Shown here: positions 3,996-8,571 of the stretch, one piece after another | Layout of the letters: each line of letters starts with the position of its first letter | Position numbering within the stretch: the first letter of the stretch is position 1 | DNA from: Haloglomus salinum | Lineage (GTDB): Archaea; Halobacteriota; Halobacteria; Halobacteriales; Haloarculaceae | DNA length: 64,000 nucleotides | Reading direction: 5' to 3' | Assembly (NCBI RefSeq): GCF_024298825.1 | Contig: NZ_CP101153.1 | Span: 1,364,001 to 1,428,000, forward strand | Translations under genes and position numbers: made by a program | The notes under the pieces: generated by a model | What the model was told of the DNA's origin: nothing | Database searches by the model: none | The model's input: the letters and a program-made list of their open reading frames with translations, nothing else

Positions 3996-4058
3996 ATGAC
4001 GTGGAAATACTTCGGAAACGCTGACGAATCGGAAGCAAAGTTCGAGGTGAGTGCGTGA
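3996..4058 (+). CDS. Small leader ORF upstream of amt1 (20 aa)
   Basis: Encodes MTWKYFGNADESEAKFEVSA, and its TGA overlaps the amt1 ATG (TGATG). An equivalent 21-codon ORF precedes amt2 with the same overlap, and the two peptides end alike (FEVSA and LEVDSA). Position and coupling suggest a translated leader that delivers ribosomes to amt1 or acts in regulation. No protein family is recognised, and expression is unproven. Confidence 0.45.
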   Translation: MTWKYFGNADESEAKFEVSA

Positions 4059-5476
4059 TGATCGAACCGATACTGCTCCAGGGAGACGTGACCGCCATCG
4101 CGAACAGCATCAACGCGGTGTGGGTGCTGATGGTGTGTTTCCTGATATTCTTCATGCAGCCCGGGTTCGCGCTGCTGGAGGCCGGGCAGGTACGCGCCAA
4201 GAACGCCGGCAACGTCGTGATGAAGAACATGACCGACTGGTCGATGGGCGTGCTGGTCTTCTTCCTCGTGGGAGCGGGGGTCTCCGCGATGGCGGGGATG
4301 CTCGGCTCGCCGGGCGTCGAGTTCTCCATCTCCGGCGCGTTCTCGCACATCAACGACCCGACGGCGTGGATCGGCTGGCTGTTCGGCGCGGTGTTCGCGA
4401 TGACCGCCGCCACCATCGTCTCCGGGGCCATCGCCGAGCGGATGAAGTTCTCGGCGTACGTCGTGTACGCCTTCGTGCTCGTCGCGGTCCTCTACCCGGT
4501 CATCTCCGGGTCGACCTGGGGTGGGACGGGCCTGCTCTCCTCGACCGGCTTCCTCGGGGAGGCGCTCGGCGTCGGCTACAAGGACTTCGCCGGCGCGACC
4601 GTCGTCCACGCGATGGGCGGCATCGCCGGGCTCACCGCCGCGTACATGGTCGGCCCGCGCAAGGGCCGCTTCGACGAGAACGGTGACGCACAGCCCATCC
4701 CCGGGCACAGCGTCCTGTTCGCCGTCATCGGGACGCTCATCCTGGCCTTCGGCTGGTACGCGTTCAACGTCGGCACCCAGGCGACCGTCCTGACGACGGA
4801 CGGCACGTTCAACGGCGCCGCGCTGGGCCGTGTCGCGCTGAACACCACCCTCGCGATGGGCGCGGGCATGGTGTTCTCAACCATCACCACCGCCGTCTGG
4901 GAGGGCAAGCCGGACCCACTGTTCGGCGCCAACGGCCTCCTGGCCGGCCTGGTCGCCATCACCGGCGCGTGTGCCCACGTCACCTGGTGGGGAGCCCTGG
5001 TCATCGGCATCGTCGGCGGCATCCAGACGCCCATCGTCTACCGCTGGGTCGTCGACTCGCTGAAGATCGACGACGTCTGTGGCGTCTTCGCGGTCCACGG
5101 CTCGGCCGGCTTCATCGGGACCATCATGATCCCGTTCTTCGACGTGGCCGGCTTCTCGGTCAACCAGCTGATCATGCAGGTCGCCGGCTCCGCGTTCATC
5201 GGGACGTTCACCGTCCTCGGCACGATGGTGACGCTGCTGGTGGTCGACGCGGTCATCGGGCTGCGCGTCTCCGAGGAGGAGGAGGTCACCGGGCTCGACC
5301 CCTCCGAGCACGGCATGCACGCCTACCCCGAGTTCACGGACGACTCCGGCCCCGAGCGCGCGGTCGCCGACGGGGGGAGCGTGCCCGGCGCCACTGACGA
5401 GATCCGTACCGATGGCGGTGTCGCGAGCGACGATGCTCCCACCCCCGCCATCACGGAGGTGACCGACGATGAGTGA
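4058..5476 (+). CDS. amt1: Ammonium transporter 1
   Basis: A 472-residue Amt/Rh channel for ammonium uptake through the cytoplasmic membrane, with about 11 membrane segments. The twin pore histidines sit in TVVHAMGG and VHGSAGF, and the family signature around DFAGATVVH is intact. The cytoplasmic tail contains [15 protein letters not shown] and then about 60 acidic residues. The next gene, glnK1, encodes the PII protein that normally binds and closes this channel; the genes overlap by 8 bases (5469-5476). The start is the ATG overlapping the leader ORF stop, which adds no GTG-initiated residue. Confidence 0.95.
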
Positions 5477-5834
5477 CGCGCCCAACGACGGCGGCGTGAA
5501 ACTGGTGACGGCGTTCATCCGCCCGGACATGCTGGGCGAGGTGAAGGCCGCGCTCGTGGACGTGGGCGCTCCCTCCATCACCGTCACGAACGTCTCCGGC
5601 CGCGGCAGCCAGCCCGCGAAGAAGGGCCAGTGGCGCGGCGAGGAGTATACCGTCGACCTGCACTCGAAGGTGAAGGTCGAGTGCTACGTCGCGGACGTCC
5701 CCGCCGACGAGGTCGCCGAGGCCATCGTCGAGGCCGCGGGGACCGGCGAGCCCGGCGACGGCAAGGTGTTCGTCTCGCCGGTCGAGGAGGCGTACCAGAT
5801 CCGGACCGGGGTGACCGGACAGGACGCGGTGTAG
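5469..5834 (+). CDS. glnK: PII nitrogen regulatory protein GlnK
   Basis: A 121-residue PII protein that senses 2-oxoglutarate and adenylates and gates the ammonium channel. The T-loop segment reads [18 protein letters not shown] and keeps the tyrosine equivalent to the bacterial uridylylation site (GEEY). The C-terminal PII signature [15 protein letters not shown] is intact. The gene begins inside the end of amt1, so translation is probably coupled. The sequence is very close to the PII domain fused to amt2 at 8221-8568. Confidence 0.95.
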
Positions 5835-5837
5835 GCC

Positions 5838-6317
5838 GTGGCCAACACCGACTCCGCCGACGGGGGGTCGGAGGAGCCGGACGAGACGGGGAACGAGGAA
5901 CCGGCCGTGGACGCGACCCGGAGCGGTCCGCACGACCGCGCCACGGTCACCGCGGCCGACGCCGCGACCGCCGACCGGCTGGCCGCGCTCGAAGGGTCGG
6001 GCGCCGTCGACGGCTACGTCCCACTCGTCGACTACGACGCACTCGGGCTCCGGACGGCACTCCTCCGGATCGACGCCCACCACGGGAACGCCCGCACCAT
6101 CGCGGACGACCTCCGCGACGGCCCCGGCGTAGCGGTCTACCTGGCCAGCGGGCGGTTCGACGTGCTGGCCGTCTGCCGGTTCCCGTCTGCCGCCGCGTTC
6201 GAGCGAACCGCGACCCGGCTGGCGAGTGACCCCCGGGTCCGTGCCCACCGCATCGCGGTCGCACGGCACGCCGTCGTCGAGGACGGGCCGCTCACCGCGC
6301 TGCACGACGGCGACTGA
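5838..6317 (+). CDS. Lrp/AsnC-like effector-domain protein without an obvious DNA-binding domain
   Basis: A 159-residue protein starting at a GTG three bases after the glnK stop, so third gene of the amt1 operon. The first 50 or so residues are acidic and low in complexity. The rest resembles the C-terminal RAM (ligand-binding) half of Lrp/AsnC regulators: a segment around LAALEGSGAVDGYVPLVDYD, then LRTALLRID and YLASGRFDVLAVCRF. The canonical N-terminal helix-turn-helix is not evident. It may be a ligand sensor or a partner for another Lrp protein in nitrogen control; both roles are inferred from context. Confidence 0.7.
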   Translation: MANTDSADGGSEEPDETGNEEPAVDATRSGPHDRATVTAADAATADRLAALEGSGAVDGYVPLVDYDALGLRTALLRIDAHHGNARTIADDLRDGPGVAVYLASGRFDVLAVCRFPSAAAFERTATRLASDPRVRAHRIAVARHAVVEDGPLTALHDGD

Positions 6318-6763: not shown

Positions 6764-6829
6764 ATGAACGTTTCAGAATGCGAGTTCGAAATAGACAGTC
6801 GTTCGGAACTAGAGGTGGATAGCGCGTGA
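6764..6829 (+). CDS. Small leader ORF upstream of amt2 (21 aa)
   Basis: Its 21 codons read [11 protein letters not shown] then [10 protein letters not shown], and its TGA overlaps the amt2 ATG exactly as at amt1. Length, acidity and C-terminal residues resemble the amt1 leader peptide, while most other residues differ. A conserved coupled leader is the simplest reading; translation is not demonstrated. Confidence 0.45.
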
Positions 6830-8571
6830 TGGACGTACTGCTCCAGTCCGGCACGGAGCTGAGTACGCTGGTCGAGGGGGTCAACCTGCTGTGGGTGCTG
6901 ACGGTGACCTTCCTCATCTTCTTCATGCACGCCGGCTTCGCGATGCTGGAGGCCGGGCAGGTCCGCTCGAAGAACGTCGCCAACCAGCTGACGAAGAACA
7001 TGCTCACCTGGAGCATCGGCGTCATCGCGTTCTTCCTCGTCGGCGCGGGCGTCGCGAGCGTGACGGGCCAGTTGACCGGGCCGAACGCGCTCGTCCCGGG
7101 TGACCTCGTCGCGACCTGGAGCGCCGGGTCGGCGGGCTGGGTGAGCTGGCTGTTCGGCGCCGTCTTCGCGATGACCGCCGCCACCATCGTCTCCGGGGCG
7201 GTGGCTGGTCGCGCGAAGCTCCGCGCGTACGTCACGTACACGATACTGCTGGCCGCGGTCATCTACCCGGTCGTCGTCGGGTTCACCTGGGCGGGCCAGG
7301 GACTCCTCACCTCCGACGGCCTCATCGGGCTGGGCTTCCAGGACTTCGCGGGCGGTGTCATCGTCCACGGCATGGGCGGCGTCGCCGGCCTCACCGCGGC
7401 CTGGATCATCGGCCCGCGCATCGACCGCTACAACAGCGACGGTTCCGTGAACGTCATCCCCGGCCACTCGCTGACGTTCGCGGTGCTGGGGACGCTCATC
7501 CTCGCGTTCGGCTGGTACGGCTTCAACGTCGGCACCGCCGCGTCGGTGTTCGACGCGACGGCCGCCGCCGACCAGGGCATCCTCTCGCTGGGCGCGTTCG
7601 ACTACGTCGGCCGCGTCGCGCTGACCACGACGCTGGGCATGGCGGCGGGCGCCATCGGCGCCGGCGCGATGGCCTGGTACAAGACCGGCAAGGTCGACAC
7701 GCTGTACGTCGCCAACGGGATGCTCGCCGGCCTCGTCGGCATCACCTCCATCACGGACGGCATCCTCTGGGTGGGCGCGCTCGCGGTCGGTCTCATCGCC
7801 GGTGCGCAGCTACCCATCGTCTTCGGCTTCGTCGAGAAGCGGCTCAAGATCGACGACGTCTGTGCGGTCTTCCCGGTCCACGGGAGCGCGGGGCTGCTCG
7901 GCGCGCTGCTGTTCCCGTTCGTCGCGACCGACACCTGGGCGAGTGGCTTCGACGCCGCGTTCTTCGTCGACGCGCTCGTCGGACAGGTCGTGCTCGTCGT
8001 GGTCATCACGGCCTGGACGGTCGCGGCAACCGCTGCAGTCTTCGGCGCGCTGAAGGCCATCGGCCAGGCCCGTGTCTCCCGCGAGCACGAACTGGAGGGG
8101 CTCGACGTCTCCGAGCACGGCGTCGACACCTACCCCGAGTTCGGCCGCCCCGAGGCCGCCACCGACGGCGGCTACGTCCAGGACGACCGCGGCATCATCC
8201 GCCCGGACGGCGGCGTCGCCAACGACGGCGGCATCAAACTGGTGACGGCGTACATCCGCCCGGACGTGCTGGGCGAGGTGAAAGGCGCCCTCGTCGAGGT
8301 CGGCGCTCCCTCAATCACCGTCACGAACGTCTCCGGCCGCGGCAGCCAGCCCGCGAAGAAGGGCCAGTGGCGCGGCGAGGAGTACACCGTCGACCTCCAC
8401 CAGAAAGTGAAGGTCGAGTGTGTCGTGGCGGACGTGCCCGCCGAGGAGGTCGCCGAGGCCATCGTCGAGGCCGCCAAGACCGGCGAGCCCGGCGACGGCA
8501 AGGTGTTCATCCTCCCGGTCGAGGGAGCACACCAGATCCGGACGGGCAAGACCGGCCGCGAGGCCGTCTAA
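6829..8571 (+). CDS. amt2: Ammonium transporter 2 with C-terminal fused GlnK domain
   Basis: A 580-residue fusion. Residues 1 to about 440 form an Amt channel with the twin histidines in GVIVHGMGG and VHGSAGL, ending in the cytoplasmic tail [15 protein letters not shown]. From residue 465 (NDGGIKLV) to the C-terminus is a complete PII protein with the T-loop [13 protein letters not shown] and the C-terminal [10 protein letters not shown] signature. The fusion point equals the amt1 tail (DGGVA) joined directly to the GlnK1 N-terminus (NDGG), as if the intervening stop and start had been deleted. No frameshift is needed. The regulator is therefore tethered 1:1 to the channel. A GTG at 6826 could add one residue. 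Confidence 0.93.

Follow-up and report, generated by a model that had tools for sequence, protein, structure and literature searches.

A gene of Haloglomus salinum joins an ammonium channel and a PII (GlnK) protein in one polypeptide, an arrangement widespread among haloarchaea

The stretch of the Haloglomus salinum genome analysed here (64,000 nucleotides, hereafter the window) carries two ammonium channel genes close together on the forward strand. The second, amt2, begins with the ATG at 6829, directly preceded by an in-frame GTG at 6826, and remains open with no internal stop to the TAA at 8569-8571, giving a protein of 580 amino acids (6829-8571, +). When this protein was compared with Pfam, a match to Ammonium_transp (PF00909) covered residues 21-435 (E 6e-92, 309 bits against a curated cut-off of 23, profile positions 1-399 of 399), and a match to P-II (PF00543) covered residues 470-574 (E 2e-23, 83 bits against a curated cut-off of 25, positions 2-102 of 102). 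A free-standing glnK-amtB pair has two separate frames, and here we found one, with no stop. The gene is a genuine fusion of a complete Amt channel and a complete PII/GlnK protein in one polypeptide, and the initial annotation was correct in reading amt2 as continuing in frame into a full PII. The annotation placed the start of the PII at residue 465, which is the end of the linker; the fold proper begins at residue 469, corresponding to Met1 of E. coli GlnK.

The boundaries of the parts could be set by comparison. The Amt channel domain, including its C-terminal region (CTR), comprises residues 1-438 (6829-8142, +), based on alignment to E. coli AmtB, on the columns invariant in 54 fusions, and on a fold match to 2nuu and 2ns1, which are AmtB-GlnK complex entries. 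It is followed by a Gly/Asp-rich linker, residues 439-468 (8143-8232, +), whose length varies from 23 to 55 residues over the 54 fusions, and then by the PII (GlnK) domain, residues 469-580 (8233-8568, +), which ends in a free C-terminus and has 4OZJ, 4OZL and 4OZN as its best PDB matches. By alignment, the T-loop occupies residues 505-523 (8341-8397, +), and contains R515, equivalent to the pore-plugging R47 of GlnK, and Y519, equivalent to Y51.

The ordinary amt1-glnK pair previously noted beside the fusion was found just upstream. Its first gene, amt1 (4055-5476, +; likely starting at an ATG just past the listed GTG), encodes a separate ammonium channel of haloarchaeal Amt clade A, and glnK1 (5469-5834, +), whose start overlaps the amt1 stop, encodes a free PII; over the PII domain, it shares 86% identity with the fused protein. 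The interval between glnK1 and amt2 contains a gene for a 159-residue protein (5838-6317) that weakly resembles the Lrp/AsnC ligand-binding domain (Pfam, E 4e-5, just under the cut-off) and matches NCBIfam TranRegLrp_Halo at 3e-12, below that model's cut-off; no DNA-binding match was found in Pfam at its N-terminus. The stop of a 21-codon open frame at 6764-6829 shares bases with the amt2 start (TGATG). Relatives frequently have a short frame that ends where amt begins (a frequency taken without a chance control), often with the same TGATG overlap, and the sequence of these frames is weakly conserved.

To place the fusion among relatives, we used the fused protein as a query and took the 80 best named haloarchaeal loci. 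A single-frame Amt-PII fusion was present in 73 of them, including five close relatives (L034-L038), of which one is Haloglomus halophilum, whose fused protein is 97% identical. The conservation in related genomes that the initial annotation proposed to look for is therefore seen, and with the same frame in 73 independent named loci and no point in its favor, we regard it as practically inconceivable that a sequencing or assembly error removed a stop and a start between amt2 and glnK. The remaining 7 loci, six from Haloferax and one from Halogeometricum, have amt2 and glnK2 as separate genes that share a reading frame and are parted by a single stop codon. Production of a free GlnK from an internal start was also considered and rejected: the linker of the amt2-PII gene contains no ATG, GTG or TTG start, no start codon is conserved across the linkers of relatives, and both the GTG at V472 and the ATG frequent in relatives at 471 (K-M-V) fall inside the first PII strand. 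In one genome (G123, at L130:2867-3690), the fused gene seems to be frameshifted, with the Amt frame entering the start of the PII and the remaining PII lying in another frame.

To evaluate the spread of the fusion over the class, we took one genome for each genus, a census of 79 genomes from 78 genera, and scored a fusion when the PII lay in a frame of at least 550 residues. Amt and PII matches within one frame were checked for the doubtful long frames (G012, G029, G121 and G222), and for the other genomes frame length and the full-length matches listed were used. By this measure, 50 of the 79 genomes carry an Amt-PII fusion. In 42 of these 50, no PII other than the fused one passed the family cut-off, and a further genome (G222) has two PIIs, both of them fused; in total, no free PII was found in 43 of the 50 fusion-bearing genomes. 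The earlier idea that the channel might be controlled without free GlnK does not hold for H. salinum, which keeps GlnK1 and a third PII, but it fits these 43 genomes. Four of the 79 genomes (G001, G042, G043 and G047) had no PII match at all. In a draw of 196 genomes of the phylum, no fusion was found among the PII frames listed from outside the class, the longest of which, at 343 residues, is too short for an Amt-PII protein.

The initial annotation attributed the junction to a local deletion joining the amt tail DGGVA to a GlnK start, NDGG. A recent deletion in H. salinum is ruled out by the class-wide spread of the fusion, which indicates that the fusion is old, and the motifs themselves are general haloarchaeal features: unfused Amt tails end in motifs of the TDGG...RTDGG type, and free GlnKs often begin PNDGG. 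Because such similar motifs stand at unfused Amt tails and free GlnK starts, an indel joining an amt-glnK pair may nevertheless have been the route to fusion in some lineage. In the Amt tree, haloarchaeal sequences form two clades, one Amt1-like, mostly with free GlnK and with three fusions, and one Amt2-like, in which fused and unfused proteins are interleaved. Parsimony requires at least 17 changes between the fused and split states, 10 of them forced by well-supported branches, on a quick tree that does not distinguish gains from losses of the fusion. A single clade of Amt2-like fusions, and with it one origin for the main haloarchaeal fused set, was rejected (AU p = 0.0001) in a test constraining 42 of the 43 Amt2-like fused rows, the long-branched L140 copy having been left out beforehand. 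Some split pairs, at least that of L120, look like fissions of a fused gene, judging from a PII that directly follows the amt stop in the same frame and begins with a stretch that carries the linker motif (IRTDGG...EDEPNDGEIK). Since lineages appear to have split the fusion, the tether is probably not indispensable.

This interleaving, together with the single stop separating Amt2 and GlnK2 of Haloferax in one frame, would be expected if the fusion were neutral and had arisen by accident from the tight packing of amt-glnK pairs, working just as a separate pair does and toggling between the fused and split states without consequence. We consider this unlikely, given that 50 of 79 census genomes carry the fusion, usually as their only PII, that the PII frames listed from the rest of the phylum are all too short to include an Amt, and that no internal start is conserved.

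Sequence conservation within the fused protein was then compared part by part. Mean identity to the window protein was 74% for the membrane part, 82% for the CTR, 55% for the linker, 79% for the PII and 96% for the T-loop, and the conservation of PII and CTR but not of the linker suggests selection on both domains. Relative to F107/F215, W148, D160 and H168/H318 of E. coli AmtB, the channel residues are kept by alignment as F113/F232, W154, D172 and H180/H351, and the twin-His, Phe gate, Trp and Asp positions are invariant in the 54 fusions; AmtB S219 is replaced by T236. In the E. coli AmtB-GlnK complex, the CTR of AmtB contacts GlnK, and alignment indicates that this region is kept in the fusion. 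The ligand and plug residues of PII (Q39, R47, Y51, K58, K90 and R103) are likewise retained as Q507, R515, Y519, K526, K558 and R571, most of them invariant in the 54 fusions, whereas E. coli R101 corresponds to Q569, which is itself invariant among haloarchaeal fusions. Of the five positions compared for ATP and 2-oxoglutarate binding (Q39, K58, K90, R101 and R103), all but R101 are kept, as are R47 and Y51 in the T-loop. In an AlphaFold model of the monomer (pTM 0.68), a PII fold lies behind a disordered linker, with pLDDT below 50 over residues 425-462 and low confidence in the T-loop as well. Among the best PDB matches of the fused PII (4OZJ, 4OZL and 4OZN; E 1e-59), the ATP-bound 4OZN is named by Foldseek as Haloferax mediterranei GlnK2 (TM 0.86 by target), and the closest solved structures for the channel part were of AmtB type, the AmtB-GlnK complex among them. 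The PII is joined to the channel through its N-terminus, and the carboxylate at its C-terminus is left free. For archaeal GlnK to bind 2-oxoglutarate, it is important that the C-terminus be free, and an N-terminal tag seems less consequential (PMC8395244).

The best reading of these results, and probably the right one, is that the fusion is a self-regulated ammonium channel in which a tethered PII trimer would plug its own Amt trimer until 2-oxoglutarate and ATP release the T-loops, as the initial annotation suggested in proposing that the tethered PII acts on its own channel. This is favored by the completeness of both domains, far above the family cut-offs, by the retention of the channel, CTR, ligand and plug residues, by the 73 named loci with no stop, and by a PII whose C-terminus is free and whose closest solved relative (4OZN) binds ATP. 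We also count in its favor that, following ammonium shock, GlnK of H. mediterranei associates with membrane AmtB1 (PMC3831643). Against gating in cis are the replacement of E. coli R101 by Q569 and an AlphaFold model that is monomeric and silent on cis docking. By analogy with the GlnK-AmtB family, from which we infer docking of the trimers in cis, ligand switching and channel closure, Amt2 would carry its own GlnK on its cytoplasmic C-terminus through a flexible linker of ∼30 residues, and a set of three such chains would assemble into an Amt trimer with a trimer of PII beneath. With ADP bound and nitrogen plentiful, the three T-loops, each with its R515, would enter the three pores and close the channel, and binding of Mg-ATP and 2-oxoglutarate would withdraw them and open it. 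The tether would hold the plug near the pore at any level of free GlnK, in which case gating would be set by metabolites and not by PII abundance.

A membrane-held signalling hub, more than a plug, is a possible but doubtful alternative role for the fused PII: the flux of ammonium through Amt2 would set the state of the PII, which would then activate soluble targets such as glutamine synthetase. With no free PII found in 43 of the 50 fusion-bearing census genomes, other PII tasks would fall to the tethered copy, and PIIs resembling single-span membrane-anchored proteins also occur. Activation of H. mediterranei glutamine synthetase by GlnK in vitro is cited in PMC3831643, and structures of GS-GlnK1 from Methanosarcina mazei exist (PMC10651883). 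However, the conserved T-loop, R515 and the Amt CTR are what would be expected for channel blocking. Extended to the class, we tentatively raise the idea that in most haloarchaeal genera PII may not be diffusible, its sole copy residing in an ammonium channel, so that PII signalling as a whole, the control of glutamine synthetase included, would take place at the membrane and be coupled to ammonium entry. The fused PII could also act on other partners, or form mixed trimers with GlnK1.

The T-loop of the fused PII had been singled out as nearly identical to that of GlnK1. The match is real but not special to this pair, since in a set of 53 haloarchaeal fusions the mean identity over residues 505-523 is 96%, and we attribute it to class-wide conservation of the T-loop together with homogenisation of PIIs within genomes. 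In 20 genomes with both Amt types, PII-PII identity within a genome was 0.857, compared with 0.774 for such pairs between genomes, and the within-genome value was reached in none of 20,000 permutations in a test that ignores kinship among the genomes in the set. It also exceeded the values of 0.766 and 0.796 for PIIs of one type taken from different genomes. No such homogenisation was seen for the Amt domains of these genomes (0.532 versus 0.528). In the PII tree, which is built on 112 columns and has few of its deep forks resolved, the free PII of Haloglomus clusters with the fused one. This pattern suggests that gene conversion or domain replacement keeps the PIIs of one cell interchangeable, and it is consistent with a report that AmtB1 of H. 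mediterranei may bind both GlnK1 and GlnK2 (PMC3831643).

Compared with the GlnK-AmtB pair or complex of E. coli (2NUU/2NS1), Archaeoglobus fulgidus and H. mediterranei, the fusion shares both domains, the CTR, the T-loop arginine and the ligand residues, and a 3:3 geometry is expected. Its two parts display nearly all the testable features of their families, and it departs from textbook GlnK-AmtB in being a single chain from which the PII cannot diffuse, and which holds the only PII found in many species. The closest solved relative of its PII domain, H. mediterranei GlnK2 (4OZJ, 4OZL, 4OZN), is in contrast a free protein. In Haloferax, Amt2 and GlnK2 are separate, and the relatives of this GlnK2 are encoded immediately behind amt2, in its frame and with one stop codon between. 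Amt-PII fusions also occur in bacteria, on clostridial and enterococcal plasmids, again with the Amt before the PII in a single CDS or frame (Ruminococcus albus 7, WP_013483901.1; Monoglobus pectinilyticus, WP_320691151.1; Enterococcus raffinosus). They are 31-35% identical to the window protein and stand apart from the haloarchaeal Amts in the tree, and so probably had a separate origin. In the sensor Amt 6EU6 and the Shewanella denitrificans Sd-Amt1 receptor 8QJ3, an Amt carries an added C-terminal signalling part; the part added in haloarchaea is the channel's own regulator, PII, and not a kinase or cyclase output. Public annotation names the fusions plainly 'ammonium transporter', and specialists browsing domain architectures may already be aware of them; our search of the openly accessible literature, with subscription papers outside it, found no paper describing a haloarchaeal Amt-PII fusion. 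Few signalling proteins are as widespread as PII, which is usually presented as a soluble hub that moves from one target to another. An archaeal class that ties PII to one channel, in many species as the sole copy found, provides a natural experiment on PII confined to the membrane, and the fused protein fixes at 1:1 a stoichiometry that complicates structural and kinetic work on Amt and GlnK.

Three PII genes were found in the H. salinum genome: glnK1, the fused gene and a third elsewhere on the chromosome, outside the window (L139:3015-3650; G000:C1:2850535-2850849, - strand). The third PII begins with a hydrophobic N-terminal segment, MEPVVAVLLVTCLVLGVGAALLGRR (hydropathy 2.86), after which come a linker and the PII domain, and from its sequence looks like a single-span membrane-anchored PII. 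A protein with a hydrophobic segment and a PII domain is also encoded just upstream of the Amt-PII fusion of Halovenus carboxidivorans (L096:2956-3555, L148:2449-3048); its linker is similar to the one in the fusion, and its PII shares 94% identity with the fused one.
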